DNA of 64,000 bases from Ashinkailepas kermadecensis (Eukaryota > Arthropoda > Thecostraca > Neolepadidae), in NCBI GenBank assembly GCA_034440615.1, contig JAOTOM010002907.1, positions 1 through 64,000 on the forward strand, written 5' to 3'. Below are positions 2,937 to 32,780 of the stretch, piece by piece. How positions within the stretch are numbered: the stretch's first letter is position 1; each line of letters opens with the position of its first letter. The position numbers and the translations under genes are program-made. The notes beneath the pieces are model-generated. The model saw only the letters and a list, made by a program, of their open reading frames with translations. It was not told the origin of the DNA and searched no databases.

Positions 2937-2945
2937 TTAAATGAC

Positions 2946-5849: not shown

Positions 5850-6367
<518 letters not shown>

Positions 6368-6495
6368 ACTCTGGTGTTTTCCTGGAGACAATATGCTACA
6401 TGCCAGACGAGTGGCCGCTGATCTTCAGCTCCTTCGTCTTCTTCATCGTCCCGATGACCAGTCTCCTCTTCGTCTACCTCTGCATAGGGATCCAG
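6368..6495 (+). CDS. Neuropeptide GPCR exon (extracellular loop 2 and TM5), pyrokinin/CAPA receptor-like
   Basis: Internal exon with a TTTTTCAG acceptor and an ideal CAG|GTGAGC donor. It starts with two bases of a split codon and ends on a codon boundary, giving 42 full codons. The first ~14 residues are extracellular loop 2, with a Cys (ETICYMPDEW) at the place where class A receptors form the disulfide to TM3. The rest is a hydrophobic TM5 with the conserved Pro (FFIVP) and a C-terminal YLCIGIQ, matching the TM5 end of PRXamide-type receptors (pyrokinin, CAPA, neuromedin U). Such receptors are Gq-coupled plasma-membrane proteins for amidated neuropeptides. The reading is strengthened by a second exon at 32681 that continues in phase with the matching intracellular loop. 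The exact ligand subtype cannot be told from this fragment. Confidence 0.87.
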
Positions 6496-7063
6496 GTGAG
6501 CACGCCTTGGCCGCTGTTCACCGCACACACGCACCCTGCACCCACCAACCGTCAGGCGACTCATCTGGTGTGCTGCATCACATCGCCGCTGGCATATTGG
6601 CACCGACATCGACATCGGCATCGGAATCAGTATTCGGTATTCTGTAAAATGTTCAGGTAATATTAATATGCTTGTACGTCCTCGATGGCAGAACAAAAGC
6701 TTGAGCATATGATTTGACACTGATTCTTAGCAGTTCGTGTCTGTTGTATTTCTGCCGTCAGTACATACTGAGAGTCTACCATCATACGTTTCAATCGCTT
6801 GATCCTTTGTCCATCTGGTCTTCGTCCAACAGGGCTCTTAATTAAGCAAAGCACCTCCACTTCGACTTGAGTGTTGCAGACATCAGTGTTGTGAGTATCG
6901 TACCTGAACTGGAATTGAACATGGGAAATAATTATCCCCTGCACGCATTATCCCCTGCACGCAGCTACGTGATGCACCTCCCCTCCTCTCCCCTGGATAT
7001 TTTTCAAGTATGTTTTCCGAAAAGCTCAGTGTTTCCATGACCAATGGGGCATCCTTTGAAGAT
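6496..7063. other. No feature recognised
   Basis: Proximal intron sequence. No gene, RNA or repeat was recognised. Confidence 0.4.
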
Positions 7064-7214
7064 TTGGTTGGTTGGTTGGTTGGTTGGTTGGTTGGTTGGT
7101 TGGTTGGTTGGTTGGTTGGTTGGTTGGTTGGTTGGTTGGTTGGTTGGTTGGTTGGTTGGTTGGTTGGTTGGTTGGTTGGTTGGTTGGTTGGTTGGTTGGT
7201 TGGTTGGTTGGTTG
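7064..7214. repeat. (TTGG)n tetranucleotide microsatellite, ~37 copies
   Basis: Perfect TTGG repeats without interruption. The WLVG and QPTN open frames across it on the two strands are artefacts of the 4-bp unit. Confidence 0.98.
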
Positions 7215-7549
7215 AATTCCCATAACATGTAAGGCCACCGTGCTATGACATCATCCGATCCACATCCACCGAAGGTGTGGCTCATCACCCACCAAAGGAA
7301 ATTATCTACTCACAAAACGGACGTGTCATTTCCAAGCACATTTCAACTATTGTCGTGAGAGGAGATGCAAGTGCTAAGATATTTTGTGCTTTGTGTTAAG
7401 TGCTTCGATATGTTGAAAAGCAACTTGTCTCCATGACCTACTCGGGTAATCTAGTCTGCGACCAACAAGATGGGATCTCGAATAACGTATTGAGACAGAG
7501 TGGCGTAATATTGAAGATTGGGTAGTACTGCACTTAGCCTTGTCAATAA

Positions 7550-7650
7550 TATTGCTAGTAGAACTCCTGAATTTACGCTCATTAGAACATAAATTTATAT
7601 GTCTGATTTATAATGAGCCCACGGTCAGGAGTTCTACCAACAAGAGCTTC
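7550..7650. repeat. Inverted repeat (fold-back) with 13-bp arms
   Basis: GTAGAACTCCTGA near 7557 is mirrored by TCAGGAGTTCTAC near 7634. An inner pair, GCTCATTA/TAATGAGC, lies within the same fold. It could be the footprint of a small palindromic element. Confidence 0.7.
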
Positions 7651-7747
7651 ATAATAGCCATGCCCGACGACAATTCAGGATACCATACGGTTCTCGGGCT
7701 GCAACAGGTCAGAACTCCGTCAGAATATGAACGGAATAGATTGGAAT

Positions 7748-7809
7748 ATCTGGTGGCAACTCGTGTCTATTCCACCTGTTGGTGCACTAGACACGGGTTG
7801 CCACCAGAT
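7748..7809. repeat. Hairpin, 22-bp arms with one mismatch
   Basis: The arms are 7748-7769 and 7788-7809, around an 18-nt loop. The right arm contains GCCACCAG, the same word that is tandemly amplified 50 bp downstream. Confidence 0.85.
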
Positions 7810-7860
7810 CTGTACTCGCACCAAGCTATTATTCCCGAGCGCTGGACGAACCCTGCGCGC

Positions 7861-7950
7861 GGCCACCAGCGGCCACCAGCGACCACCAGCGGCCACCAGC
7901 GGCCACCAGCGACCACCAGCGGCCACCAGCGGCCACCAGCGGCCACCAGC
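7861..7950. repeat. 10-bp minisatellite (GGCCACCAGC), 9 units
   Basis: The units follow the order GG, GG, GA for two rounds and then GG for three, giving a partial 30-bp higher-order period. Confidence 0.95.
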
Positions 7951-8013
7951 GGCTGCGTGACTGCCGTCCGGGAGCGAGTGCCGCTCAGCTGTGGCGGACT
8001 GACGTCGCGCCAG

Positions 8014-8230
8014 ATTCGGCTGAGATTGGACCGCGATTGGGCTAAGATTGGGCCGCGATTGGGCTGCAATTAGGCCGCGATTGGGCTGGGATTAGGCCGG
8101 GATTGGGCCTGAATTGTGCTGCGATTGGGCTGCTATTGGGCCGCGATTGGGCCGCGATTGGGCCGCGATTGGGCCGGGATTGGGCCGGGATTGGGCCGAA
8201 ATTGGGCCGGAATTGGGCCGGGATTGAGCA
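8014..8230. repeat. 11-bp minisatellite (ATTGGGCCGCG-like), ~20 units
   Basis: Head-to-tail 11-bp units with variation at the CCGCG part. The open frames across it show 11-residue periodicity and are not genes. Confidence 0.93.
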
Positions 8231-8284
8231 GGGCGATCGAACGCCTGACACGGCGGCTTCTCCGCCACGCTGACGGCCTGCTCA

Positions 8285-8360
8285 GCCACCGTCCTTCGCT
8301 CCCTCCGCCTCCGCCCCTCCGCCGCCCCCTCCGCCCCCTCCGCCGCCTCCGCCGCCATTG
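8285..8360. repeat. CCTCCGCC-rich polypyrimidine-like tract
   Basis: A run of CCG, CCT and CCC triplets and short variants. The complementary strand is G-rich, with closely spaced GG/GGG runs, so it may form G-quadruplexes. Confidence 0.8.
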
Positions 8361-8419
8361 TCTGCCAGTCCCTGCCGAGCTGTGGCTCTGGTCAGCAGAC
8401 AAGACCTTCGCCACCCTTG

Positions 8420-9205
8420 GCTTCCAGGTGGGTCCAACCACAGGGTCGCAGGAGCAATTCGCAAGTTGGAGGGACAAGACCGTGGCTGTTTCCCATCCGT
8501 TCCCACCCAGTTTCGCATTCGTCGACAACAACAACAACAACACAAATTATCCGAGTTGGGCCACCTTGGTCCAGGATCCCAATCCTTACTTTTTACTTCC
8601 TGTTCCTAAGATACCAATTTCCAATTCGGTGGCTCAAAAGCCCAGCCCGTGCCCTCAGCCCGTTCTTATATCTCTGTCTGACTCGGACGTAAACAATGAT
8701 GATACCCCCTCAACCTTCCCATCGTAGAGACAAAAACAGCATTTCTACTCGGTCATAAAATGGTAGATTATTACACGGGCCCGATACTTGGGAGCCTTTA
8801 GGAGCTGGTGTTGCTGCCATGCCAGTGGCTATTACTGATGCTGAACTATTATGGAGAAAGCATTTAATCCAGCAGAGCTAGTAGCCAAAGCCGAAAAGAA
8901 GGTCATCGTTCCAGGCTTCCAGCAGTGGAATGGAGAAACATAGGAATCATGCTTGCTGATTTGTGATACACAGTCCTAATGAATAGCCTGTCAGGCTGAG
9001 CAAAGCTTAAAGAGCAAGTCAAACAGATTTGTGGGCCCACCAGAATCACGGCGGGCCGTGGTGGCATTGGCGACAACGGAGACAAATCGCTATGATGAGC
9101 TCATTATTTATTGCTTCCTCAACAGCGCCCCAGCTATCACTTCCCAGTTTTGCAGGCGAGTTTCCAACCCCAGGTACCCCGGCAGCGGCGACACTCCTGC
9201 CAGCA
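8420..9205. repeat. Copy of an unnamed dispersed repeat (also near 45.64 and 45.87 kb)
   Basis: The segment from about 8426, with the word AGGTGGGTCCAACC and the following ~60 bases, is clearly related to 45642-45710. The segment at 9160-9205, with CCCAGG, CCGGCAGCGGCGAC and CTCC words, matches 45880-45925. The interior also contains an ACAACAACAACAAC run (8525-8542). No protein is recognisable. Confidence 0.55.
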
Positions 9206-9215
9206 GCTCCACTTG

Positions 9216-11307
9216 TGTCGAACGCCATGTCCATGATATGAGCAACGCATTCGCATTCGCATTCAGCATCCTATTCGCACACTCTCCAATTTCGTTCATT
9301 TTTTGTCAGGATATGATCTTTGTCGCTTGCAAAAGTAAGGCAAACAACAATTATTCAGTAGGACGAGCAGTTCGATCTCCAGGGGTCAGGACAGGTAATT
9401 CTGGTCAAAAACGGGGTACCGCATAAAATTCAAAGTGTTTCACTTAGCCAAATAATTATAACGCCTAAATGTCCGCTGTCCATCAAAGATGCAGCACGTC
9501 GAATTACGTGACGTTCAATGTCACAGTTTGACCTCAGGTCACCAAAGTCGGTTTTACTCATGCACTATATCTATTTACGGGGTACCGAATAAAATAAAAT
9601 AAAACTCCGATGGTGATACATTGGAAATGACTGATTTTAGCGAGTGATAGTCTACATAGCACATACATAGAGCACATCGATCAAAATGACCCATTATGGT
9701 CACCGATTCATCACCGTTCGCAAAAAAGTTCAAAAATAGCAAATATACCAAATTCTTGTGTACTCGATAATTTCCGCAAAATTTTATCCGATAATCCGAT
9801 AAATGTATTTAGGAAATTGTTCTTCGGTACCCCGTGATATCCACATAGGGTGTAATATTAAAGTTTTCGTTAACCTGTGGTCAAATGGTGACCTCGAGTG
9901 ACCAGTTGACTTGGTGTGCTGCATGCTACCGTAATAGCGGTGGCACAAGCGTTTGAATCATTCCAATAAGTGAACTATCCGACAAGTTATGCGGTACCCC
10001 AGATTTGACCTCGCTGACCTTTTCGCCTCTAAAGGCGAAATGGTCCGTCGTAGCACAACACATATTTCGTGGTGCATATACATGCCTGCGAAGGTTGTGT
10101 CAAATTTTCACACGAATCGGAGGATATTGGTGAATGCGTCTCTGAACGCGTTCCTGAATGGGATGCTAGTGCTACCTGATGAAATGCGTCATCGATGGAG
10201 GTCAGGTCACGCAGTGTGTTGCTTCTTGTATTGATAGTGCATGCATCAGCGTTGAGATAGTCTACATTAAATGCTTCGTTTGGCCCACATACGGTACCGC
10301 AGTGACTACTTTAATTTTATGAATTTCATCAAACCTGACCTGAGGTCAAACGCTGGCCTTGAAGGTCACATACTTGGATGTGCTTCTTCCTTGCTCGGTG
10401 GGCGATTATTAGACGCTAATATCCATCGGACAAATGTATTCAGGAAGATGTTATTCGGTACCCCGTGATTTCCCCATAGGATGTAATGTTAAAGTCTTCG
10501 TTAAATGGGGTCAATTGGTGACCTTGAAGGTGACATGCCTGGATGTGCTGCTTTCTTGCCTGATGGGAGATTATTTGGCGCAAATGTCCATTTAAGGAAT
10601 GCATTTAGGAAGGCATTATTCGGTACACCGTAGATGGTAACAGTGCAAGGTCAAAACAATATTTTGTGGCATAGGTCAAACTATGACATTGTACGTCATA
10701 CGCTTCAGTGTACTGCATCCATGAGCCATTCCCAATGCCTGGATGTTATTTCGTGGTGCCAAGTAAAATTTTACGGAAATTATCGGGTACACAAGAATTT
10801 GGTATATTTGCTTATCTTTTTTGCAAACGGTGATGAATCGGTGCCCATGACGGGTCATTTTGTTCGATGTGCTCTATGTACGTGCTATGTAGACTATCTG
10901 CTGCAAAATCAGGTATATCCAATGTGTCACCATGATTTAATTCGGTACCCCGTAAATAGATATAGTGCATGAGTAAAACCAACTTTGGTGACCTGAGGTC
11001 AAACTGTGACATTGAAGGTCACGTAATTCGATGTGCTGCATCAATAATGAACAGCAAACATCTAGGCGTTGGAATCATTCGGCTAAGTGAAACACTTTGA
11101 ATTTTATACGGTACCCGTTTTTTACCCGAACGACCTTTCTTGACCTGTGGACATCGAACTGCTCGTCCTACTGAATAATTGTTGCTAGCCTAACTTTTGC
11201 AAGTGACAAAGATCATATCCTGAGAAATGAGCGAATTCGGTGAGTACTCGAATAGGATGCTGATTGCGAATGTGAACTCGTTGCTAATATCACGGACATT
11301 CGAACGC
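9216..11307. mobile_element. 2.1-kb foldback element / palindromic satellite block
   Basis: The left arm (about 9216-9795) and right arm (about 10765-11307) are long, imperfect reverse complements, with many runs of 20 or more identical bases. One example is the block around TGCACTATATCTATTTACGG at 9560 and its complement at 10950. The ~970-bp centre carries direct copies of the same material. The word TTCGGTACCCCGT or a near match recurs at about 9413, 9578, 9826, 9990, 10290, 10455, 10620, 10940 and 11108, mostly about 165 bp apart. The whole therefore looks like ~165-bp monomers arranged in two opposing orientations between unique outer arms. No transposase frame is present. Confidence 0.85.
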
Positions 11308-12429
11308 CGCCGTGCCGCCCCGACTCCGTTCGCCGCAGCCTGGCGGGGGGGGGGCTGGTGCGGATCCGCCGCTCGGCCCGCCTTCTGTTCGGACTTGTTT
11401 GCACTGCCGGAAAGCGAGATCGATCCGCCCACGACCGCGATACGTTCTCGGACGAACTTTTTGTGACGTCAGCCACGTTTTTGCGTTGCGTCGGCTGCCC
11501 GGCCCGCCGGAGATAGTTGTGCGTCTTGGCCAGTGCACTGGCGACAATGTGCCGCTCGGGCGCCGACTCACTGCGTGCCGGACGTCCGACCACCACGGCC
11601 TCCTGTCCGGGAGGCTCGTCCGGCTACCGCGGATACCCGCCTCTGCTTCGTATCTACCAATCAGACTGCACTGGCGTGTCTTCCATGCCCGTCTACCGTC
11701 AGCCATCAGTCGACGGCGCTTCTCGCCCGGTACTGATTCGGCAGTTTTTCAGGTCGCATCAATATTTCCGATGAATTAGCACGAATTCGGTCGATTTTAT
11801 GGCATAATTGCGATCCCTCCAACAGTTCATTCTGGCATTCATTCTAGTGCGTCTTAGGACACTTTTTGAAAGGTTTTTAGTTCAACTGAGTGTTTTACAC
11901 GTTTCATCTACGGAAACCTTCTTGTGGGCCTAGCCAGCCCTTCGTACCAAAACGGCAGCTGCCGAATTTCCCGAACATTCCGGAGAATCAGAGCTGCATT
12001 ATCACGGAAATTTTCAGTGTTGAGCTTCAAAGTAGTTTTGTCTCTGCTGATGACGTCACTGGGCCGCCAGTGTCCAGCCGCAGCAGGCGTGACGTATCCT
12101 GCAACGGGCGACCGACGACCGTGTACACTCGGCGTTCTTTGACCTTCATGTTTATACGCCGCAAGTATCAGTATCTTCACTCACGAATTATACGTGGGCG
12201 CGAACGATCAAAACTGGTCGAAGCGCCCTAAAACCCGAATAATTAACTACACTCACGAATTATGTACAATCGGCATTTTCACCTCCCTGTTCATGCGCCG
12301 CAAATATTTATATCTTCACTCACGGATAAGCGAACCCGCAAACTGAGTCTCACCCAATGACGTAACTATAGCGCTATTGAAGTGCATGGTTAGTCGATTA
12401 TTTTACCTTCCACATGTGGCGTTGGTATC
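11308..12429. other. GC-rich then mixed sequence, no gene recognised
   Basis: 11310-11760 is GC-rich with overlapping open frames on both strands and no domain. 12150-12330 holds two imperfect ~130-bp copies sharing CGCCGCAAGTAT and CACTCACGAATTAT words. Confidence 0.4.
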
Positions 12430-13600
12430 AAGGACACAACAGCTGCGTCGCTGCCACATTAAAATCAAATTCATTAGCAACCACCCGGCACAGCGCTGCT
12501 TTACGCCTGCCAGATACGACAAGAGCCGATTTGGGCGCAAGCTTCCACCATATAGTATTCAAATTGCCACGGCTCTCCCAGATCTTAACCTCACAATGCT
12601 AATAAATCGACCGCCTACTTGGCCATTCTGGACACTCAGCCAACCAAAGCTCGAGTACTTGCTCTCGGAAAAGATATGGACTATCACATCGGCGGAAATT
12701 CTTGGTATGTCCCACAAATTCGCCAATGACAACAATCACAAAACACTTGTCGTATTCACGGACGGGTCGAAACACGAGGTTAAGGTAAGCATCGGTATCA
12801 CTGGACCAGGAATTAAGCTTGCCAAGCGTCTACCGGATTAATTATGTATCTACTCCGCTAAAGCACTGGCCATTATGGCCGATATCTCCATTCTTATGAG
12901 GCGTAAAGCTAGAAACGTAGTAATTTGCTCAGATTTCAAATCCGTCCTTCAGTCAATTGGCAACACTCACGACTGTCCACATCCAGTCATTGACAGAAAT
13001 AATCCAACAAATCGTGGCCCATGGCATAAACATTAACTTTTCCTTTCTCTGGATACCGGGCCACGCCAACATCCCATAGGTAACGAAGAAGCAGATCGGC
13101 TCGCAAAGAAATCCTTAGCATTGAACACTTACCCCAGTATGGAGTATCCGGTACACGATTGCAAAGCACTCCCCAACGCCACATACGTCAGCATCACCAG
13201 AACACATGGACATAGCACAACTCTACACAACACAAATCCAACCACACCCACATCAAACCAACGGTAGGTACATCTAAAACATCAAATCAATCTCACCATC
13301 AAAAGGAAGTCATCCTCACTAGACTTAGAACTGGTTGCATTAAACTAACTTAGCCTCAACAAGAGGGTGACCAATATACAACAACTCGCTGCGACACCTG
13401 CAGCACCACATTAAGCATAGGCCACATCATGCTAGACTGTAGTAGCTTCAACGCTCAAAGCAACCACTTAAGGCCTTCTGCCAAAAAAGGGCATCACCCT
13501 TTCACTTCCAACGCTTCTGGGTGACAAGCGCCCAGAACTCCTTCAATTGCTGTTTGTATATTTGTACGCCACAAAATTAGAAGGAGCACTGTAGACACCA
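12430..13600 (+). pseudogene. I-type LINE ORF2 C-terminus with RNase H domain, decayed
   Basis: At about 12755 the frame reads VVFTDGSK, the first Asp block of a retrotransposon RNase H. It continues through YSAKALAI (12850), VVICSDFKSVLQS (12920) and GNEEADRLAKKSL (about 13080). The family normally has Glu in the AEL/AI block; here the residue is Lys, so catalysis is lost. The post-RNase H zinc-binding tail (CDTCSTTL, then IGHIMLDC) is at about 13385-13440, and the frame ends near 13590 at ATKLEGAL. Stops and shifts interrupt it at several points. The domain order matches that of the I-type LINE at 54559-60431, but the two are diverged. Confidence 0.85.
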
Positions 13601-13930
13601 CACCAACAACACTCGCTTCAGCACGCAATAAATGCCTCCGATACACTCATAGGAAACGCGTAAATAGCCATCCACGAATGGCATCGGACGTACATGAGCC
13701 GATTTGTTTTCCAATTAGAAATAAATGGTTATCTAGCGGTGCCGTCGGACGTAGATGAGCCGATTTGCTTTAAAAAAAAACAGCGTAAAACGACTACCCA
13801 AAGGAGCCATGGGACGTAGATAAACCGCAGCCTTGCAACTCATAGCGTAAAACGGCTACATAGAAGTACAACTGACGCAGATGAGCCGAATTGCCAAACA
13901 TCGTACTAACCCCACTAGCAACCCTGCATG
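13601..13930 (+). repeat. 3' untranslated end of the LINE relic with four GACGTAGATGAGCCGA repeats
   Basis: Copies at about 13687, 13748, 13813 and 13873, spaced near 60 bp. Each is accompanied by GCGTAAAACGNCTAC-like text. Tandem 3' repeats are known in several LINE families, and this may be part of the element's RNA recognition end. Confidence 0.65.
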
Positions 13931-15649
13931 ACATGCTTAGGCTAACCCTTTACTAACAACTAACACGCGGCGACAAGCGCGATAGGCGGTGTGGACAATT
14001 ACCTCCTTGTCCGCACGGTAAAAACCCCTCTGTGTTCGTGGACAAGAGTAAGCTAATGCCTGCACCCTGGAAAAATCAACTTTCTCATCACTCTCAAAAT
14101 CACCGTCCACACCCCAGCTACAACTTATCTTACGGAGAGGTAAAATAAAACTAAAACCATTCAGACATCCAGGAGATGGTCTCCACCCAGCCCCCGCCTT
14201 CAGCACCTAAAACGTCACACGCACTATGACGTAGAACTCACTTAGCGTAAATGTGCACTTGCATTTGCTTTGCTTGCAAAACACACTCGCTTTAAACGCG
14301 GCGTAAATGACCTTTATGGTCCGACACGCCTCTAAAATCCCTCCCCCCGCGTTGGGAACAGTTTGTAAACGCGGAACTTTTTAATGCTGCTGTAAGGGCG
14401 CCTTAGCTGCGTTACAGGCAACATCAGGGCAAGCAGACCAACCTCGCCGAACCGATTGGTGAATCGATTCCAACGTATGTGCACACCAATCCTTCAGATG
14501 TAACTTGTCTGGAAATGTTCTTTAATGTTCAATGCCTCATATACGACGAGATATACGACGAGATGTGCGGGAGATATACGACGAGTACACAACATCGACA
14601 TGGCCGAATCGATCGGTGTGAGTGTTGGAGTCATCACCCCAGCCAGCTACAACACCGGAGGGCACAGCACTTTGGACTGCCGACCCGGCAGATATCAAGC
14701 TCCACGGTGACGTCATCGGGTGACGTCACGGATTTGCAGGTCCGCTTGTCTATGAGCGAAAATCCTGATACTGGCGACGGAAGAGCAGGACGTACAACGC
14801 AAGCCGAACTGAGGCAGTCGCCAGTGGACGGCCCGAGCGTGCGCTGAACATGCTGCTGGCTGGGCTGTGTTGGTCTGGAGATACCACCGACATGAACACA
14901 ACTGCGGCTAGCTGCCCTGCAGTGACACTTGTGATGGCAAAGGCTGTACCATCTCCGTGCACCTATGATTCTCCTAAATATTTCAACCATTCGGCAGCCG
15001 CAGTCATGGTACGGACACACTCAGTAGGCTTGCAATTCATGAAACGAGTTTCAGATACACCAATAACTGTTCGAAGTCGGCTCCAGAAACGACCAAAATA
15101 AGCATTAAATGGACTCGAGTTGTAGAAAGTCGTACGTCATGCAATTCACTTAATCACATTCATGAAGTGTCACCAAGAATCTAGAAATAAACCACAAAAT
15201 AATCCACAAATTTCACAAGCTTCGTACTACTACTGCACGCACTCTGCAGATTCCAAGCAACGTACACGGCACGCACGAACATTCGGACAAGCTCCAAGTA
15301 TGTTCTAGAGTTGCATCGTTGAACGTCATCTACCGTGCTACACGTCACCCGTAGATGGAGACTCAGGGGGCTGGGGGGGGGGTGAGGTGTGTCAGTTGTC
15401 GACTACTTTCTCGAAGCAAATTTCGCATCAAGCATATAAGGTATGCTAAATATTCTGGACTCAAAAGGCATTATGAACCCATCCCGGAACCTTAGGGAAT
15501 ACCTCACCCAGTGCGGCTTACATTATATTGGGATTGAAATATGTGTCCCATGAAATGCTATTGTCGGTACTACATGCATGATGAATGTCAATGAGTGAAA
15601 GTTGGCGGCCAGTTCTTTGCGAACGAATGCAGCAGCATGAAATACGATC
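13931..15649. other. No gene recognised
   Basis: Mixed sequence with a short poly-G run at 15370. The minor open frames at 14479-14847 and 13937-14206 show no known domain. Confidence 0.4.
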
Positions 15650-16424
15650 AACGACAGGCCAATGTGTAGGTGTCAACGACAGACCAATGTGTGGGTGTCA
15701 ACGACAGGCCAATGTGTAGGGGTCAATGACAGGCCAATGTGTGGGTGTCAACGACCGGCCAATGTGTAGGTGTCAACGACAGGCCAATGTGTAGGTGTTA
15801 ACGACAGGCCAATGTGTAGGTGTCAACGACAGGCCAATGTGTAGGTGTCAACGACAGGCCAATGTGTGGGTGTCAACGACAGACCAATGTGTAGGTGTTA
15901 ACGACAGGCCAATGTGTAGGTGTCAACGACAGGCCAATGTGTCGGTGTCAACTACAGGCCAATTGTGGGTGTCAACGACAGGCCAATGTGTGGGTGTCAA
16001 CGACAGGCCAGTGTGTGGGTGTCAACGACAGGCCAATACGTAGGTGTCAACGACAGGCCAATGTGTAGGTGTCAACGACAGGCCAATGTGTAGGTGTCAA
16101 CGACAGGCCAATGTGTAGGTGTCAACGACAGGCCAATGTGTGGGTGTCAACGACAGGCCAATGTGTAGGTGTCAACGACAGGCCAATGTGTAGGTGTCAA
16201 CGACAGGCCAATGTGTAGGTGTCAACGACAGGCCAATGTGTGGGTGTCAACGACAGGCCAATGTGTAGGTGTCAACGACAGGCCAATGTGTGGGTGTCAA
16301 CGACAGGCCAATGTGTAGGTGTTAACGACAGGCCAATGTGTAGGTGTCAACGACAGGCCAATGTGTAGGTGTCAACGACAGGCCAATGTGTAGGTGTCAA
16401 CGACAGGCCAATGTGTGGGTGTCA
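15650..16424. repeat. 25-bp minisatellite, ~31 copies
   Basis: Units contain CAACGACAGGCCAATGTGT and end GGGTGT or AGGTGT. The G/A alternation and occasional AACG/AATG variants are scattered through the array, and one unit has lost a base (15958). Confidence 0.97.
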
Positions 16425-19130: not shown

Positions 19131-19142
19131 CCAGTGTTTGAT

Positions 19143-19186
19143 CGCCTGTTTGTGGGCGCCCACACACTGGCGCCCACAAACAGGCG
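19143..19186. repeat. Perfect hairpin closing the 14-bp array
   Basis: 18-bp arms (19143-19160 and 19169-19186) around CACACACT. The arms include array-derived GGGCGCC, so the array's last unit appears to be duplicated in inverted orientation. Confidence 0.9.
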
Positions 19187-21930: not shown

Positions 21931-22189
21931 CTATGACTGCAGCCACCGGCACGCTGCACCCTGAGTCTGTCTCGCATGCCAGCAACTTGGCTAATGCAAA
22001 TTGCGCATTGTATATTCGCCCTCCCCACCTGACGTCCCAGTCGTCTGACCCGACGCTTTGCTCCTTCCCCTGGGGGCTCGCTCGCTGGGTGGCTGGTGAC
22101 CACTCCCCCTCCCCCGGATGGACGAATCGCTTGCCGATTGTCTTGCCTCTGTGAACTTTCTGACCACCGTCAAGAATACAGTTCGAATA

Positions 22190-22285
22190 AAGGTCTCCAA
22201 CTATTTGCCAACACTCCAATACCCGAACAGTCCAACACTCCAACACCCCAACAGTCCAACACTCCAACACTCCAAGCAGAACACC
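22190..22285. repeat. Short CCAACACTC/CCAACAGT repeats
   Basis: About eight degenerate 8-16-bp units built from AACACTCCAACA and GAACAGTCC words. Confidence 0.85.
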
Positions 22286-22386
22286 TTCAGAAATTACGGC
22301 GACTACCATGGCTGTAGGAACAGTAATGGGGAAGGGGATAGACCACGTCGCTATTTTTCTCTGATTGACACCATGGGCGTTGCATC

Positions 22387-23600
22387 AAAAGAATAGTGTT
22401 CGACAAAAAGTCGAAGGGAAGAAAATCCGAATTGCTTATGCACTTCGGATTGCATGGCTTGGCAAGGCCATCTCAATGCGGGAATGTATTTTCGTTTTCA
22501 GTCAATAGTCATTACCACCAAGTACGCAGCATTGAACCTTTTACACGTTCAACTTCTTGTTGTAGAACCGAGAAGAACGGACTGAAGAAATAGTTTTTTT
22601 TGCCGGACCTTCCTACCTGTGCGGTACGTACTCACCACAGCCGGCTCCGACTTGCACGCACGAACGCTATGGCGGGGCAACACAACAACAAACGTGACGA
22701 CTATGGCGGGGCAACACAACAACAAACGTGACGACTATGGCGGGGCAACACAACAACAGACGTGACGACGTTGTAATCTGTGAGTGCCCCGCGAAGGGAC
22801 GCACGCACTACGCGACTGGGAAGACATCCGAATAGTTTCCTGGTGGAACAGTACCCTTCGGTAGCACCTACCGCCATTCTGTACAGGCGCTGCAGAGGTC
22901 GGTCTCGCAAACTTCGAGGAGACAATCCATGGAAATATCTGAGTTCTAAGTTTCGCTCTGGAAATCTAAGTTTCGCTCCGAAAATCTAAGTTTCGCTACT
23001 GATCCGGGTAGATTTCGTCGTGTGCTGCCAGCGAGGGAACTCCTCCCCGTTGGTTGATGCAGTGCTTGACAACACATCCACGTCGGCGTCGAAAGGTCTC
23101 CGATCGCTTAGGTGTTGTAGCCGTTGTGGATCTTGTCTGTCCCATCGTCTACCGGCCCAAAAGAGCAGCTGTCTGCGAACCCTGTCTGGGACGTCTGTCT
23201 AAAATCGGCACCATGCGATGCGATGCAGTCGATCTCATTGGAGGTCCAATAATGAGCGAGTTGTCTCACGTGTCGTGGCGCTGGGACTCTCAAGTACTTT
23301 CAACTGGAGAAGCGGGTAGCTGGGGCCAAAAAGTTGTATTCACCATTGGATTTGGGCCACTGCAAATTAAAACTGGACCAGCAGTGTTAATTTCAGCATC
23401 CCCGAGAGCACAGTGTTCACGGCGATGGACTGATAGCCGTAATTCAGTATGTTCGCGTCATGTTCGTGTCATGAGTGTCGACTTGTATGATTTTGAAGGG
23501 TTGCCTTGCCTCGATGGTGGCTTGGGCCCCACAAATTTCAGCATTTAATATAGGACCCATCCGGTTGCCCACCCAATCGATTTGAGTTTGTCCATTTCCT
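22387..23600. repeat. Unnamed dispersed repeat family, ~1.2-kb copy with internal tandem blocks
   Basis: The left part (22387-22560) is related to 45520-45600 and 45926-46000, sharing AAAAGTCGAAGG, ATGCGGGAA and AAGTACGCAGCATT-like words in order. The right part (23460-23600) is related to 47020-47150, sharing GTCATGAGT, TTGGCTTAGCCCC-like and AATTTCA words. Between them are three 34-bp units (22667-22768) and three ~19-bp units with CTAAGTTTCGCT (22945-23000). No conserved protein was found. Confidence 0.55.
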
Positions 23601-24329
23601 ACATGTATAAATTCCTCCCAAATACATTTATGGATAGATAGATCAGCATTCTGGGTTCGCTATTAATGTGCCAATAATGCCACTAAACAGTGCGGTGGAT
23701 ATCTACTCTACAGTGTGGGAAATTAACAACTGATGAGAAACGATTTTACTGATTGCAAGCTCATGGCGCAAGTCATAGTGTCTACGCTTGTTTAGAAGCC
23801 TATGGCATGCACGATTGTCTTACAGGTACTCGTGCATGTAAAAACATCAGTGTATATGCATTCCGTGAGGAGTTTAGGTGTATATTGATGATACATGCTG
23901 TTCTTGCAGTAAACCGGTACATTCTCCTTGGAACGACTTGCGTTATGCTACCTTTTTATCGTGTGTTCGAGTATCTACTTAGCATATACTTTGCAAACGC
24001 CTTACACAATAAACCAGTCAATTATCGCGATTGGTGTGCATTAAAAATAGTATGTAACTTCATGGCAGTCAATGCCCAAGTGGAATAAATGTAGAGGCAG
24101 ACAGATTACGCGGCAACCAGTTTCTGCCCGCAGCGTCCGTGCTGTGCTTTTAGCAGACACTAATTGACACACGCCGGTCTGCTCATTTAATGTCGGCAGC
24201 TCCACCGCCTGAATTATGTGCTGGCTGGGATGAGTTATGACCGGCTTTATGTGGTGATCACCTGCGGCCGCATTAGTCAGGAATGGGCCCTCACTGTGCT
24301 GCACAGGCAGATCCAGGAATTGTCATAGG
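23601..24329. other. No feature recognised
   Basis: AT-rich sequence, no gene or repeat identified. Confidence 0.4.
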
Positions 24330-24980
24330 AGAATGGGGGGAATTGTCATTCGTCTGAAGGGGCACTCTATTTCCTCGGAGGGGCGCTTTACGCTGAAAAT
24401 CCTTTGAACGGAAGGGGGGGTGTATTCGAGCACACCGACTGAATGGACGCCTTGTCCTTGCAGGAGGGTGCCTATTCCTTCCAAGGAGGCGTTTTAGGCT
24501 GAACAATCCGTTGAGCGGGGGAGGGGCGGTGCACTGGAGTCCTTCCGGCCTTTCCAGATGGGCGTCTGTCCGGCGTCCGTCGTCTGACCCGCCAGACAGT
24601 CTGCCCTGGCCACCACCGCCGGTTACGACGCCGTCTGCGGCGGCGAAGGCAGGACAGCTGTGGAATTGTCTGGGAAGTTGCGGACCGCTTCGGCTCGTGT
24701 GGTTTGGCTGAGCATCCATTATATCCGGTCGGAGATGAACGAATGCTGTGGGATATAGAAGGCATTGGCAGCGTGATATGGTGAGATGAACGATAACAAT
24801 CCCTCACCGACAGGCGGGGGGTGGATGTGAGGGGTGATGGGGTGGATGCCACCTTCTGACGGCTAAGTCGCTGCCGGTGGACAACTCCTCACCGACAGGC
24901 GGTGGGTGGGTGTGAGATGGGGGGTTGGGGGTGGATGTCACCCTCTGACGGCTCAGTCACCGTCAGTGGACAACAGCGCC
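24330..24980. repeat. Local duplications in GC-rich DNA
   Basis: Two imperfect ~120-bp copies share GGAGGNGCNTTNNGCTGAA and a G-rich end (24350-24420 and 24460-24530). Two ~88-bp copies share CACCGACAGGCGG and CTGACGGCTNAGTC (24808-24880 and 24890-24970). Confidence 0.7.
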
Positions 24981-25629
24981 GGGCAGCGCGCCGCCGGTTA
25001 GCACAGCAAAGCATGCATGCTGTTGGGGTCTGTTGGTCGAAGTGGACCAATTCATATCGGATCACCGAATTGAAACTTTATATTTGGAGGCATGCTTGGT
25101 GCATTTTGGCCGGAATCGGAGCCTGTATCAGTTTGGTTGCAGTTAATATGTTCCGATGGTTCTTACTTGATTTGCTCTTGTTCTCGTACCAGGCTGTGCC
25201 CTCCATGTATTCCTGAAGTCAAAGGATGGCATTGACCTGACTAACCTTACGTGAACGTTTCGCAACTGAATGATCATTCGGGAATGTGCATGTCGGAATG
25301 CGATTTCAGCGGCCATTTTTACTTTTCATGACACAGTTTCATTCATGAGCATATAAAGTGGTGACGATAACATGCACTAGATCACGTGGGGCGAAGTCAC
25401 GTCAACTTTTTTTTTCAGTAGAAACATAAAGACAAATAAAGTGTTTTCTCTCTTTTTAAGCTCACCATAAGATTTTGGCATGCATATCAGTGAGGTCACT
25501 AATTGCCATGATCTTAGTAAATCTGTGCTGGCCATTGGTGATCCTTGTCACCCAAGGAGCATAATCGGGGATTTGACACTCCTTGCACTCAAAAGCAATA
25601 CGTTTCATTGTTTGCTACCAGCATAACCA
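24981..25629. other. No gene recognised
   Basis: One short open frame (to 25216) has a hydrophobic tail but no recognisable family and no splice context. Confidence 0.4.
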
Positions 25630-25795
25630 GGTTCTATGAAGACTGCGCAAAGAACTAAAGCTCAATTATTCGCGTGGGTGGTGACATGACCCAAAGAACT
25701 AAAGCTCAATTATTCGCGTGGGTGGTGACATGACCCAATTATCGCTTGGTGACAGCCCAATTATTCGCGTGGGTGGTGACATGACCCAACGCCAC
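25630..25795. repeat. ~45-bp repeat, three copies
   Basis: Copies of CAATTATTCGCGTGGGTGGT with GACATGACCCAA. The first two are preceded by AAGAACTAAAGCT, and the third is truncated. Confidence 0.9.
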
Positions 25796-26235
25796 AGGTT
25801 CCGTTCAGTCAGATCATGTTAGCATATATAGTGAGGAGTACGGAAGAAAATATTTCAAGCTGAAAACGACGTGAAATGTAGGAAAATTCGTCCCCAGTTT
25901 ATATTTGGTACAATGTTTGGCTCACGGTAAGCGAATTACCTCGACTTTCCAAAGGAAAAATGTATGGAATTGATATTGCTACCCACTATGCATCCTGAAA
26001 ATTTCACACAAACTTCAAAATTTCACAGTACGTTCCATAAACGTTGCGTCGATGCAAGCCTTTCTGGAGGTATTTGGTGCTTTCGAAGCACTTTCCCTGA
26101 TCTGGACCACTGTGACCCAAGGTGGCCTGGGATGAACACTGTTACATGTGGTGTAGGAAGGCTGCGAGACAAGGTACTGCCAATTTCGGTGCGCTGTGTT
26201 GCTCTGAAAAATAAACTGTACATGTCTGAGCCATA

Positions 26236-26490
26236 CATGCACCGAGCGTGCCATCCACCTAGCGTGCCATCCACTGAGCGTGCCATCCACCTAGCGTGCC
26301 ATCCACCGAGCGTGCCATCCACCTAGCGTGCCATCCACCGATCGTGCCATCTACCGAGCGTGCCATCCACTGAGCGTGCCATCTACCTAGCGTGCCATCC
26401 ACCTAGCGTGCCATCCACTGAGCGTGCCATCTACCGAGCGTGTCGTCCACCGAGCGTGCCATCCACCGAGCGTGTCATCCACTGAGCGCG
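26236..26490. repeat. 16-bp minisatellite, ~16 copies
   Basis: The unit is CGAGCGTGCCATCCAC, with CTAG/CTGAG/CGAT variants at its start. Confidence 0.95.
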
Positions 26491-26929
26491 TCGAGTGGAA
26501 ATTGATTCGTCCGTGCGGCCCAATCACCACCCGTGGTATTGCAGGCCGGGCCCGCTGGCTCGCGACCGTCTGTTATCAGCTGGCTGCTGAGAGATGCGGG
26601 CCGGTCCGAGCTCGTTTCTCAGCCCATAAGGTGGCGGGGTGGGGTGGGGGTGGGGGCGTTCCGTTAAGAGTGGGGGTGGGGGCAGCTCTAACCCACAGCA
26701 ATGAAGCCAGCCGCTCGTAGTGGCGTGACATCGCAGTCGCGGCCGCCAGTAGTTGAGTGATCACGCCTCGCGCGCTGTCGACTCTGGCGGCGGCACATGG
26801 GCCGCACTGGCGGCCATTGTGGCGCCACGCACCCTCCGCCAGCTGCCGTCGACAATAACGCCGCCGCACAATAGGCCACCCACCCGCCCACGTCCGCTGA
26901 AGACCCTGCTGCCTGGCCGGTGGCCTCTG
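26491..26929. other. GC-rich sequence, no gene recognised
   Basis: It contains G-rich stretches at 26632-26690 (several GGGG and GTGGGG words), a possible G-quadruplex region. Confidence 0.4.
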
Positions 26930-27660
26930 TCTGACCGGTGACCTGCTGTCTGACCAGTGACATCTGCCTGGTGCCCGTTGGCCTCTGCCTGGTGCCCGGT
27001 GACCTCTGCATGGTGCCCGGTGACCTGCTGCATGGTGCCTGGTGACCTGCTGCATGGTGCCCGGTGACCTGCTGCCTGACCAGTGACATCTGCCTGGTGC
27101 CCGGTGGCCTCTGTCTGGTGCCCGGTGACCTCTGCATGGTGCCCGGTGACCTGCTGCCTGACCAGTGACATCGGCCTGGTGCCCGGTGGCCTCTGCCTGG
27201 TGCCCGGTGACCTCTGCATGGTGCCCGATGACCTGCTGCATGGTGCCCGGTGACCTGCTGCCTGACGCCCGGTGACCTGCTGCCTGACCAGTGACATCTG
27301 CCTGGCGCCCGGTGGCCTCTGCCTGGTGCCCGGTGACCTCTGCATGGTGCCCGGTGACCTGCTGCCTGACCAGTGACATCTGCCTGGTGCCCGGTGGCCT
27401 CTGCTGGTGCCCGGTGACCTCTGCATGGTGCCCGGTGACCTGTTGCCTGACCAGTGACCTCTGCCTGGTGCCCGGTGGCCTCTGTCTGGTGCCCGGTGAC
27501 CTCTGCATGGTGCCCGGTGACCTCTGCATGGTGCCCGGTGACCTGCTGCCTGACCGGTGACCTCTGCTTGGTGCCCAGTGACCTCTGCCTGGTACCCGGT
27601 GAACTGCTGCCTGATCTGTGACCTGCCACCTGACCTGTGACCTCTGCCTGGCCGGTGATC
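26930..27660. repeat. 21-bp minisatellite with higher-order structure
   Basis: Units such as CTCTGCATGGTGCCCGGTGAC alternate with CTGCCTGACCAGTGACAT-type units. Together they form blocks of four or five units (roughly 84-105 bp) repeated several times. Long minus-strand frames (up to 397 codons) are repeat artefacts. Confidence 0.93.
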
Positions 27661-27756
27661 ACCGCCTGGTGCTCGGTGACCTCGGTCTGGTGCCCGGTGA
27701 CCTCTTCCGGCCGTGCAGAGACCACGCGACCTGTACCCGATCACACTGGCCGGCGT

Positions 27757-27840
27757 GTCCTGCGTCAGATCACAGCTGTCCTGCGTCAGATCGCAGCTGT
27801 TCTGCGTCAGATCGCAGCTGTTCTGCGTCAGATCACAATT
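27757..27840. repeat. 21-bp repeat (TCCTGCGTCAGATCACAGCTG), 4 copies
   Basis: Same unit length as the adjoining array but a different sequence. Each copy contains CAGCTG or a one-base variant. Confidence 0.93.
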
Positions 27841-29539
27841 ACGGCACGACCGGGGGACCACCCGCGCAAGCGCATTGGCATCGGTTGATATTGATGCAGG
27901 CCGGCGGCGACAGCCGTGAGAAAACACAAACATAAACCGGCTGGCGGCTGTCAATATTCCGGCCAGACTTCAGTCGAGTGTAATTGGCTCGGTCGTCGTC
28001 GCCGTCGTGGTGAGCGGCCGGCGGATCGGCCAGCCTCTCAACCCTGACAGCGCGGCTGCGTCGGACGAGCTCCGCAACAGGAAGGCGGCCTCGCCTCGCC
28101 TCGCCTCGCCGAAAATCCGACGGACGGGTAGCCGACGCGGCGAATCTGCGGCCGCCTGTCGACGTCGGCTCGACGGGCCGCCGTCGGAGCCGCAGATAGC
28201 GAGTCCAGGACGGACCGGTCGACGGCAGGCTAAGCCCCGACGACGTATCAAATTGGCCGCGGCACTCGAGTGCCGGACAGAACGGCTGCCACGTGTGCAG
28301 AGGAAGGCTCGTTTTCCGGCCGCCGGTCCGTCCCGGAACAAGTGGTGCTTCACGTCCCGACTAATGCCGGTGGGAGGAGCGACAATCACTCCGGGTGAGC
28401 CCATTCCACCAGCCGCGGACCCTTGTCTGGTGTTCTCCGCCGCTTTTGGCTTCTGGCTGTTGTCTGCGTAGTAACCTACTTCCCGACGGTGAAGATATGC
28501 TGGGGAACAAGGAGATTGGTTCTGTTCCGGAGTGGTCACCCCGGTCAGCCTCGATGGATGCATTTATCAGGGGTGTCACTTTGCATACGATAGGGGCTAC
28601 TGGCCCCGAATCAATAATTTAACCCCCAATCATTACTTGGCCCCCTCAATCATTGACCCCCCACACACACACACACACACAATCAGGCTGAAGCCTATTG
28701 ATTTGAGTATGGATGAAACATTGGACCTTTGGGCGTACACTAGATGCATATGGTTTTCACGGCAGCTTTAGACATCAAAAAGGTCATTTCCCCCCCCCGC
28801 AGCCAATTTCACAAAGTGATGCCCATGGTTCTCATCCTGGTATACACCGGCGTCCATGGTGTACAGTATTAATTCGTATTAGCTTGTGAGTGCCCGAGGA
28901 AAACCTGCGGATTTTGCGACAGCAGACGAACCGTCGGAAATGGAACAATCCTATATCGCTTTCATTGCACCACCAAATGGGTACACTATATGGGCACGAG
29001 CATGCCCCTGGAACCCAGAGATGGATTCTGGGACTGGATTATAAATTCGGGTCCTTGGTTCCAACCATTCCTGGGTCCCAGTTGGCAATTTGTTGAACGA
29101 TACACTGGCATCTAGCGTCTCGTTCTTATTTTGTGCTAGGTGTTAGCGGTACAATCATGGATCCAGGAAATACCCTCAATTTTTAATAGACCCTGCAAGA
29201 TCGCATGTGGTTTTCCGTGCTTTTTTCCTGTGACATTCAGAAGTACAGTATGGAGTTCATGTCACAAAAAGTTTCTCAAATCATAATAAATTAGCTCGCA
29301 TTGCACTCCTAGAATGCAGTTATGTGTTGAGTAGGCCAGTATGCAATATATATATGTTTCACGCCCTTCATTTATATATATATTTATATAAGTAGCTGGG
29401 AATAAGGTGTCATCTTACACCAATCGAATCACGTATTGTACCACCCTCATTTGTGTTCACATTCCTTTTATAATCGAAGTTTCTGTGCTTTAAATTGTAA
29501 TTCCTGCTTGCAACTATTTGGTCGGTTATTTGAGTTGTC
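27841..29539. other. GC-rich then AT-rich intron sequence, no gene recognised
   Basis: 27960-28450 is GC-rich, with a four-fold CCTCG run near 28090. 28663-28682 is a short CA run. 29346-29390 is AT-rich. Open frames lack domains. Confidence 0.4.
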
Positions 29540-29935
29540 GGGCGCATGAGCCAGGTTTGAGCATTTAGCGCCCGTAGCTAGCAACATGCAACCGACTCAA
29601 TATGTACATGGCTTCTTCAATGTCCACTGATTCCTAATTACATAAACCCAAGTCACATGTCCGCTACACGCACGACAAAAACCTCTACCATACTACCCTA
29701 CAGGACAGATGACGGCAAACTTTCCATCAGAGATATAGTTCAAGAATGTATGAGGCTGCATGAGGCGCGAATCATCTCCTAACATTTTAATAAGTTTGAG
29801 TGCGGACCAACGACCCCAAAAATGCTGTCTCCGTTGCCCTGTAAGGCGGGGACATAAAAGCAAGGCATGCGGCACTGCAAGCGGACCGTTACAGCATCGT
29901 CACAGACCGGGTTCGGTTCCTTCATTCTTACCGCT
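29540..29935 (-). pseudogene. LINE ORF2 C-terminal fragment with 3' UTR, minus strand
   Basis: On the minus strand the frame reads LLLCPRLTGQRRQHFWG and then MLGDD and FLNYISD. This is the post-RNase H tail found at the end of I-type LINE ORF2s, with His/Cys zinc-binding spacing and a QRRxHF motif. The 3' flank at about 29540-29570 contains a GGGCGCA...TAGCGCCC fold. The same fold occurs next to the related fragment at 43560-44127, so both come from one family. Confidence 0.7.
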
Positions 29936-30430
29936 GGTATAATACACACATAATTAAACCGTAAATTTTTGTGGTATTCCAGCCCTGACCGATTTCTTAG
30001 CTTCACGTGTGACATACCATTTCACTTTTCACGTATCCTCACATGTGAAGTGTGTTGATTTACACTCAGTGTGTATAAGTGACCATGGCATGCTTCGGCA
30101 TATGTGTATTCCGCCCCAAAGCAGTAATTGGTCTTGATTTGGCGAAAGTTGGCCTCACATCATGCATGCGTGCCAAAGTTGCATGTGTGCACCGCCTGTT
30201 CCATAAGCAAGAGCATAGCTCACGTGCTCGATCTTCTGACGGTACAGGAGACTAGAGAAGTACCTGGTGACATGGCATGATCTTGCTTGACCAAAAGCTA
30301 AACAAACTAGAATGACAATGCTTGTGTTTCTCCTGCATACGCAACACACTGATCAAAATCATATAATAATAATTAATAAAGTCATAGCATTTGATATTTA
30401 ATTAATCACCCCGATAAGGAGAAAACTTAC
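29936..30430. other. No feature recognised
   Basis: AT-rich. It ends at the donor of the minus-strand exon. Confidence 0.4.
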
Positions 30431-30527
30431 CTCGTGGCATAGTGACAATTTCAATGGCGTCCAGGTCAACCGAATTGATCCTCCCAACAATATGTGGTGG
30501 GTCGTCGACGAACGTTCGGAACGGTGC
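30431..30527 (-). CDS. Internal exon of an unidentified gene, minus strand
   Basis: Read on the minus strand, a pyrimidine-rich acceptor (CTCTCTCCACAG) is followed by 97 nt of open frame and a consensus donor (CGAG|GTAAGT). The 32 complete codons give a compact, charged sequence including VDDPPHIVGRINSVDLDAIE and IVTMPR. It has the balanced composition of a real globular protein and no low complexity. The exon ends one base into a codon. No family was recognised, and no partner exon was found on this strand. It sits inside the 26-kb intron of the plus-strand receptor gene, so it would be a nested, opposite-strand gene unless the assembly is misjoined. The repeat array immediately upstream repeats its acceptor and first ~12 bases. 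Confidence 0.65.
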
Positions 30528-31460
30528 CTGTGGAGAGAGAAGAGCCCTCGTCAGACGACCTGACGAGACACGTCCCAGTGTTACGGTCGTACCTCTGCTT
30601 GCCGTTCGGAACAATACCTATGGGAATGAAGCCCTCGTCAGACGAGCTAACGAGACACGTTGCATGTCGGTCGTTCGGGACGGTACCTGTTGAGAGGAAA
30701 GCACTCGTCAGACGACCTGACGAGACACATCCCAATAGCACGGCCGTACCGCTGCCGGCCGTTCGGAACAGTACCTGTGGGGAGGAGAGTCCCTCGTCAG
30801 ACGACCTGACGAGACACGTCCCAATAGTACGGCTGTACCGCTGCCGACCGTTCGGAACAATACCTGTGGGGAGGAGAGTCCCTCGTCAGACGACGCGAAT
30901 CCAATAGTACGGCTGTACCACTGCCGACCATTCGGAACAGTACCTGTGGGGAGGAGAGTCCCTCGTCAGACGACCTGACGAGACACGTCCCAGTGTTGCG
31001 GCTGTACCTCTGCTGGCCGTTCGAAACAATACCTGTGGGGAGGAGAGTCCTCGTCAGACGACCTGGCGAGACACGTCCCAGTGCTGCGGCTGTACCTCTG
31101 CTGGCCGTTCGGAACAATACCTGCGGGGAGGAGAGTCCTCGTCAGACGACCTGGCGAGACACGTCCCGTGCTGCGCTGTACCTTTAGTCGTTCGAACAGT
31201 ACCTGTGGGGAGGAGAGTCCTCGTCAGACGACCTGGCGAGACACGTCCCAGTGCTGCGGCTGTACCTCTGCTGGCCGTTCGGAACAATACCTGTGGGGAG
31301 GAGAGTCCTCGTCAGACGACCTGGCGAGACACGTCCCAGTGCTGCGGCTGTACCTCTGCTAGTCGTTCGGAACAATACCTGTGGGGAGGAGAGTCCTCGT
31401 CAGACGACCTGGCGAGACACGTCCCAGTGCTGCAGCTGTACCGCTGCTGGCCGTTCTCGG
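30528..31460. repeat. ~87-bp tandem array copying an intron-exon boundary, ~10-11 copies
   Basis: Each unit, read on the minus strand, carries TCTCCTCCCCACAG followed by a TTCCGAACGG-like start. This is the same boundary as the acceptor of the exon at 30431-30527. Copies of the TTCGGAAC word (or one-base variants) lie near 30605, 30671, 30760, 30847, 30928, 31017, 31105, 31189, 31276 and 31363, with a last truncated copy at 31450. The rest of each unit is intronic (TCGTCAGACGACCTGACGAG...). Confidence 0.92.
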
Positions 31461-31689
31461 GCTCGCGGACGGTGGTGGGTTGCTGAACAGTGGGCACCAG
31501 TGGCTACCTTCACAATCCTCAGACAGCTAGTCCCAGGTGTGGAGTTGGCACATGCAGTAATTGCTCGTCCACGACGGGCACTTCGGAGCGGTGTGCTCGA
31601 CTATAACTAATATCCAGTGATAAATTGTTCGGGGAATATGGTAGAATATACCACTTTCCGAGGACTGAATAGACATCCCTTACGAATAA

Positions 31690-31764
31690 TACTCGACATT
31701 GTGTTTTTTGATAAGTGTTTATAAAGTATTCATGTCTGATTTCTAACAGTATTTCATTTACAAG
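31690..31764 (-). repeat. Segment shared with 54366-54420
   Basis: The reverse complement of this interval is related (roughly 70% by eye over ~55 bp) to the plus strand at 54366-54420. The relation also holds when translated, with shared NEILLE and FINT words. Confidence 0.45.
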
Positions 31765-31767
31765 CAT

Positions 31768-31803
31768 AATAGTGAGCATAATCATGAGATTATGCTCACT
31801 ATT
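31768..31803. repeat. Perfect hairpin, 16-bp arms
   Basis: The arms AATAGTGAGCATAATC and GATTATGCTCACTATT lie around the loop ATGA. Confidence 0.95.
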
Positions 31804-32171
31804 ACTGACCATGATACACGGACATTTTCAGCAAAATTCCATGGAAGGGGATTGCCTATGGTGTGATCTGCCATACATAATCATTTTATACCATAGACAC
31901 TTTCATCATTATTGTTAACATGGCTATCTCTAATTAGGCATCTCAAAGCAAAAGAAAAGTATGCATGTAAGCACGCAATTGGATGACAATTGAGTGTCAA
32001 ACACGCAAAAGGTATTTTAAGCAGCATCGCCTCCATGACAGCTATATGTCCTATGCAGTCGATGCACCTTTAAACTACAATACAGTGCTTCTATGTTTGG
32101 GACGTCCTACTGTGCTCGGTTCGACATCTCACAACTAACAAAAAACAACATTTTTTAAACAATGCTAATGT
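31804..32171. other. No feature recognised
   Basis: AT-rich intron sequence. Confidence 0.4.
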
Positions 32172-32396
32172 CAGTTTCGGACCCCGGAACATGTGGAATG
32201 GTGTCTGCCGGTGCCGTCAGAAGGAAAAAGGTATTCGGTGGTGACACTCCGTGACGGTAAAACCTTGCCGGATATGGCGACAACGCCCGCCCCCGGACCC
32301 GAGTCTGTCCCGGCCGGATCAGCCGCGTTTGTGATCAGCTTTGACCCGAACTCGTCACGCTGCCAGCTGGCTGGGATCAAAAAGGAGCTGAATGAC
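32172..32396 (+). CDS. Possible short coding segment, unidentified
   Basis: An open frame with coding-like composition runs from a possible acceptor (AATGTCAG at 32167-32174) to a TGA at 32396. It contains KRYSVVTLRDGKTLPD, a Pro-rich linker and SAAFVISFD. No family was recognised. It could be an exon, an exonised relic or chance. It lies about 280 bp upstream of the receptor's second exon but is not in a position the receptor protein needs. Confidence 0.25.
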
Positions 32397-32680
32397 TGAA
32401 GGCCATCTCCTACTTGCCAGGACCAGTTGGCGGTAGGAGGAATCTTCACCGCATTCCCTAGTAACAGGATACTCTTTTTCTTCAGACACAGCTATCAATG
32501 TTTCAATTCACAATGTCGTGACGACATGTATCGCAAAGCTAGCGAACAGCAAGCGGTGCACACACTAGCCGATGTTCTCTATCGGGCTCCACCGGCGGAG
32601 ACTGAGCAGCAGCCCAATGCGCACCGGTGTGTGACGACGGTGACGTCACCGACGCTGATGTGTGACGTCACGTGTTGCAG
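32397..32680. other. Intron end before the second receptor exon
   Basis: It contains two TGACGTCA-type palindromes (about 32641 and 32664) close to the acceptor GTGTTGCAG. The polypyrimidine tract is weak. Confidence 0.5.
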
Positions 32681-32780
32681 ATCCGACGGGCGTCGACGAT
32701 AGGCCACCACCTGGAAGGCAGCGTGTCGGGCGGAGAGGCGCGCCAGCGGGGCAACCGCAAGGCCATCCTGCGCATGCTCG
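32681..32780 (+). CDS. Neuropeptide GPCR exon (third intracellular loop to start of TM6), pyrokinin/CAPA receptor-like
   Basis: 100-nt internal exon with GTTGCAG acceptor and CTCG|GTACGT donor. It begins on a codon boundary, matching the phase-0 end of the exon at 6495, and ends one base into a codon. Its 33 codons start IRRAST and continue through GSVSGGEARQ to NRKAILRML. This is the basic third intracellular loop typical of pyrokinin, CAPA and neuromedin-U receptors, where a G-S-V-x-G-E-x-R-Q-like stretch is followed by R-K-x-I-x-R-M-L at the base of TM6. This loop contacts the G protein. TM6, with its C-W-x-P motif, should follow in the next exon, but none was found in the remaining 31 kb. 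Confidence 0.87.

Follow-up and report, generated by a model that had tools for sequence, protein, structure and literature searches.

Two exons bordering a 26-kb intron in Ashinkailepas kermadecensis belong to a probable barnacle CAPA receptor gene

Near the start of a 64,000-base piece of the barnacle Ashinkailepas kermadecensis genome, two short receptor-like coding stretches lie about 26 kb apart, raising the question of whether they belong to one gene and, if so, to which neuropeptide receptor. The piece (the window) comprises bases 1-64,000 of contig JAOTOM010002907.1, here C2410, and window base 1 is the contig start. An initial annotation had read the two stretches as consecutive exons of a pyrokinin/CAPA-type receptor. 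From sequence comparison, we assign 6368-6495 and 32681-32780, with a probability of about 0.93, to adjacent exons 4 and 5 of a barnacle CAPA (periviscerokinin/Cap2b) receptor gene, termed paralog B, because the gene falls in the CAPA receptor clade and its best protein matches are named capa receptor-like. The entire window appears to be the interior of this one plus-strand gene with long introns (Table 1); exon numbers are taken from a second gene, paralog A, on contig C4398.

Exon borders and the next exon

Both exons are preceded by AG and followed by GT. Exon 4 (128 bases) lies between tttttcag and GTGAGC; it begins inside a codon, of which it carries two bases, and closes with YLCIGIQ at a codon boundary; exon 5 (100 bases) lies between gtgttgcag and GTACGT and opens on a codon boundary with IRRAST. 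The GT-AG borders and matching phase proposed in the initial annotation are thus borne out. Exon 5 leaves one spare base after RKAILRML, a phase-1 end that had gone unstated and that proved a good test through the following exon. A Pfam 7tm_1 search of the assembly (907.7 Mb, 4,689 contigs) placed a piece spanning transmembrane helices (TM) 6 and 7 at C2410:78885-79070, on the same contig and strand as the window exons. The opening two bases of the corresponding exon 6 complete the codon split at the end of exon 5, and the exon ends with AAG followed by GTCAGT. Joined, exons 4, 5 and 6 yield 143 stop-free residues with the phase series 1-0-1-0.

Exon 6 lies about 15 kb beyond the window end, across an intron of about 46 kb. 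A downstream TM6 exon with a CWxP motif had been expected; the exon is there, outside the window, and its motif reads CFAPHH, such that a CWxP-based search would have overlooked the true next exon. A TM6/TM7 motif scan of the window itself returned matches, none of which, judged by eye, resembled a true exon. Two environmental open reading frames, P0226 (B-like, CFAPHH) and P0227 (A-like, CFAPYH), continue past AFK as an unspliced exon 6 would, consistent with the exon-6 borders given here.

The outer borders of the exon pair also find a counterpart in Hymenopteran CAPA receptors, where the annotated isoform X2 of ants and a sawfly (Camponotus, Temnothorax and Athalia) lacks a segment bounded where barnacle exon 4 starts and exon 5 ends (P0123 against P0020, P0120 against P0021, and P0122 alone, all read from proteins; the Temnothorax isoform was judged without its matching long isoform). 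Exons 4 and 5 together measure 228 bases, and skipping both would therefore preserve the frame. In the annotated isoforms P0123, P0120 and P0122, the in-frame loss of this segment would remove TM5.

Receptor family and the TM6 motif

A tblastn search with the Pollicipes pollicipes protein P0004, run against 15 chosen sequences (the window and 14 of 34 loci), recovered exon 4 at E 3e-20 and exon 5 at E 1.6e-12, collinear with residues 184-227 and 225-259; exon 6 and the tail end of the gene align to the same protein in the same order. In a search of the species' own genome, exons 4, 5 and 6 each had a single location at 73-86% identity, in every case on C2410, and the paralog exons on C4398 reached 58% and 48%. 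With the missing half padded with X, the 143 residues matched 128 of 205 candidate proteins at E <=1e-5, and 120 of these matches were listed. The best match is the 'neuropeptides capa receptor-like' protein of Pollicipes, P0004 (about 91-92% over 143 residues), followed by an Amphibalanus amphitrite capa receptor-like protein (79%) and by Daphnia and many insect proteins at approximately 49-64%, mostly named capa receptor, with one Daphnia row named neurotensin receptor. Proteins named pyrokinin receptor rank lower, at 37-46% identity and under most capa-named rows; a few capa-named rows (molluscs and one Penaeus) are as low. All three exons align to the same CAPA receptors, and their best matches are not split between families.

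The three joined exons match Pfam 7tm_1 with E 2.3e-17 and 63.8 bits against a curated cut-off of 30.5, and exon 6 carries the class A TM7 motif NPxxY as NPILY. Among solved structures, the nearest to the TM5-TM7 part include neurotensin receptor 1 (E 1.9e-17) and neuromedin U receptor 2 (E 1.5e-15), which are class A peptide receptors like the product of the window gene, but vertebrate. According to PMC7274154, a QRL motif and ERY at the end of TM3 mark PRXamide receptors, and a diagnostic TM3 position holds Tyr in CAPA receptors and Asn in pyrokinin receptors. The QRL motif is present in exon 6, as HAQRL. The TM3 exon of the window gene was not found; ERY and the diagnostic Tyr both occur in P0004, in Amphibalanus P0125 and in paralog A, and pyrokinin receptors carry Asn at that position. 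As had been proposed, the exons fit a single PRXamide-type class A receptor, being collinear with one annotated protein and continuing in phase into the TM6-TM7 exon.

We placed the gene in a tree of 37 rows (two of our own and 35 chosen from 222 proteins), with NMUR2 as the outgroup and the window row covering 28% of the columns. The window gene groups with barnacle proteins (support 100/100) inside the arthropod CAPA/periviscerokinin clade (99/98), which also holds receptors from Daphnia, insects, ticks and horseshoe crabs. Pyrokinin receptors form a separate clade (100/99) of nine arthropod rows labelled as such, which also takes in a krill row and a Penaeus row named capa receptor-like by its source; two lophotrochozoan rows fall outside both clades.

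The CWxP toggle-switch motif in TM6 is usual, not obligatory, for class A G-protein-coupled receptors. In exon 6 its Trp is replaced by Phe, as it is in P0004 and in Amphibalanus P0005; the CAPA receptors of Daphnia, insects, ticks and horseshoe crabs have CWAP. We counted the motif across 238 aligned proteins, excluding our own P0001-P0003. Among rows with the TM3 Tyr and the motif Pro, 144 have Trp, 3 have Phe (two from barnacles, one from the brachiopod Lingula) and 3 have other residues or gaps; among those with TM3 Asn and the motif Pro, 15 have Trp, 8 have Phe, all of them decapod, and 1 has Tyr. The other rows lack the column or carry other residues. P0226 and P0227, which do not include TM3, have Phe at the toggle position. 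Because Phe at this site is not rare among class A receptors, we claim no altered function.

This motif speaks for reading the window gene as a pyrokinin receptor, as does membership of the same PRXamide superfamily: CFAPH in TM6 is common to decapod receptors of the pyrokinin clade and to the window gene. However, the low identity to pyrokinin-named proteins, the separate and supported clade of arthropod pyrokinin receptors and the CAPA-type TM3 Tyr of the barnacle orthologs make this the least likely of the readings weighed here, and of the 'pyrokinin/CAPA-type' assignment only the CAPA part stands, on both protein matches and tree.

Several observations weigh against the CAPA receptor assignment itself. 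Taken alone, the two window exons (75 residues) score only E 0.0037 and 17.2 bits against Pfam 7tm_1, below the cut-off of 30.5, and their best match in the Protein Data Bank is a serotonin receptor at E 0.11. Nor is the TM6 motif the CWxP that class A receptors usually have. The gene is also incomplete as assembled: the TM1-4 exons that had been expected upstream are not in the window, which begins at contig base 1, and the own-genome search found them neither on C2410 nor elsewhere in the assembly. A match on contig C1546 (7tm_1 positions 1-142, near a contig end) was considered for this missing half and rejected, as its frame looks aminergic-type.

A second CAPA receptor gene and the age of the split

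Paralog A was delineated on the minus strand of C4398 from matches to the Pollicipes protein, among them exons for TM1 (75% identity), TM2-3 (87%) and TM3-4 (84%). Its TM5 and loop-3 exons, with splice sites placed by eye, share 71% and 70% identity with their window counterparts. A tail exon farther on is 50% identical to the tail of Amphibalanus P0005, with which paralog A groups, and the tail end on C2410 resembles the Pollicipes tail (52%). The TM6-7 exon of paralog A was not found in the assembly search; this exon and the first part of the paralog B tail may lie in the N stretches of the two contigs, outside the searched sequence. Immediately upstream of exon 4 of paralog A, at C4398:118157-118064 (L028:8157-8064), the opening part of that exon recurs twice in incomplete and imperfect form; the matches are weak (E 0.1-0.3), one has a possible acceptor, and the two look like remnants of a small tandem duplication. 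A further TM1 exon, CAPA-like or from a related PRXamide receptor and 51-56% identical to P0004, lies at C3750:90374-90616 (L034).

Across exons 4 and 5 (74 codons, one unpaired codon excluded), the paralogs differ by dN 0.20 and dS 1.46 (nonsynonymous and synonymous substitutions per site), giving a dN/dS of approximately 0.14 that is imprecise with dS near saturation. Amino acid changes are thus few relative to silent ones, and A and B appear to represent an old split. The Amphibalanus proteins covering TM1-4 fall into type A (P0005 and P0124) and type B (P0125). P0125 is confined to TM1-4 and has no overlap with the window exons for direct comparison; the TM1-4 half of P0004 resembles it. 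In the TM1-4 data, paralog A pairs with Amphibalanus type A (98/99) and a pairing of the two Amphibalanus types is rejected (approximately unbiased test, p 0.003), and on these grounds the A/B split predates the parting of A. kermadecensis and Amphibalanus. From the 37-row tree, which recovers type A at 98/93 and type B at 96/87, the split is likely, though not firmly, to predate Pollicipes as well; within B, the window gene and Pollicipes unite at 92/23.

Other results sit less well with a clean division into two types. With TM1-4 alone, the best tree lacks the union of Pollicipes and Amphibalanus B, although the union is not rejected (0.53 log units, p 0.31). With TM5-7 alone, the pairing of window gene and Pollicipes (77/63) and that of A with A (56/3) are weak, and neither a species-private pair (p 0.079, on 74 residues of paralog A) nor a union of the window gene with Amphibalanus A (p 0.073) is rejected. 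No A-type Pollicipes protein appears among the matches listed, and the TM5-7 part of Amphibalanus type B was not seen.

A different account of the two contigs is that the window exons form an alternative 3' part of one gene with C4398, with a single TM1-4 half serving two TM5-7 halves. In its favour, the assembly yielded a single close TM1-4 set, on C4398, and a single close TM6-7 exon, on C2410, and the exon phases are compatible. We nevertheless regard it as very unlikely, given that in Amphibalanus type A and type B TM1-4 occur in separate proteins, whose pairing is rejected, and that C4398 has its own P0005-like tail exon; the same Amphibalanus evidence led us to reject a single gene that uses TM5-loop-3 cassettes in mutual exclusion or shares alternative 3' halves with C4398. 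A shade less probable again is that the window gene is a decaying copy. The missing TM1-4 half is what such a pseudogene might present, but three exons have intact frames and splice sites, the same contig bears a Pollicipes-like tail end, the dN/dS relative to paralog A is low, if imprecise, and identity to the Pollicipes protein reaches 91% over 143 columns. A protein-coding paralog B, separate from paralog A, remains the preferred reading.

Introns, mobile elements and biological setting

The intron between the window exons had been described as repeat-filled and 26 kb long. Its length holds, at 26,185 bases, of which tandem repeats make up 5,759 (22%; Tandem Repeats Finder, score >=50), a figure that covers tandem repeats alone. 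Introns of 26 and 46 kb compare with a mean Pollicipes intron of 2,077 bp, as given in PMC8917513. Intron 5 holds a non-LTR retrotransposon, and the presumed part of intron 3 a reverse transcriptase fragment (Table 1). In the non-LTR (long terminal repeat) element, the frame at 55598-56422, before the endonuclease, has a zinc-knuckle look and no Pfam match. A long array of a 9-base unit in approximately 214 copies occupies 47721-49613; the open frames that it creates on either strand, the longest of 736 residues, look like products of the repeat and not like genes. Neither Rfam at gathering scores nor ARAGORN found anything in the window. As a one-gene window, the locus gives a setting for these intronic repeats and the retrotransposon.

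Table 1 Features of the window and related loci (window positions unless a contig is named)
Feature	Position	Strand	Basis or remark
Intron 3, 3' part, of the CAPA receptor gene	1-6367	+	presumed; search of C2410 gave no TM1-4 exon
Exon 4: end of extracellular loop 2 and TM5	6368-6495	+	splice borders, phase, protein alignment
Intron 4	6496-32680	+	26,185 bases; 22% of them in tandem repeats
Exon 5: intracellular loop 3 to base of TM6	32681-32780	+	splice borders, phase, protein alignment
Intron 5, 5' part	32781-64000	+	continues to C2410:78903
Exon 6: TM6-TM7	C2410:78904-79106 (L010:4904-5106)	+	outside window
Non-LTR retrotransposon, intron 5	54971-60078	+	Pfam
Endonuclease of the non-LTR retrotransposon	56368-57288	+	Pfam
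Reverse transcriptase with RNase H of the non-LTR retrotransposon	57289-60078	+	Pfam
Reverse transcriptase fragment, RVT_1	396-956	-	E 6.6e-21
Paralog A, second CAPA receptor gene	C4398, ~170.0-65.4 kb (L031, L030, L029, L028, L041)		Pollicipes-protein matches

Removal of the 26-kb and 46-kb introns by splicing would produce the C-terminal half of a seven-helix receptor. Exon 4 would supply TM5 together with the last part of extracellular loop 2, exon 5 would encode loop 3 and lead into TM6, and exon 6 would cover TM6 and TM7 and open the tail. By analogy with its family, the receptor would bind amidated CAPA peptides outside the cell and signal via a G protein touching loop 3. A literature search, covering listed titles and abstract openings, found no paper on a barnacle CAPA receptor, which does not establish that there is none. 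In kind the window gene is ordinary, adding one more ortholog of an already known receptor.

A barnacle whole-genome duplication is placed before Thoracicalcarea, at >247 million years, in PMC11331182, and could explain the origin of paralogs A and B. The two types have the Phe toggle in common and are told apart by TM5, loop 3, the tail and, in TM6, the residue that follows CFAP (His or Tyr). That a duplication-derived pair divided CAPA signalling, for example in salt and water balance, with altered activation paralleling the decapod Trp-to-Phe change, seems doubtful to us because of the results that disturb a clean A/B history. With Phe at the toggle switch in both, the two barnacle CAPA receptors make a modest system in which the evolution of receptors following duplication can be tested.

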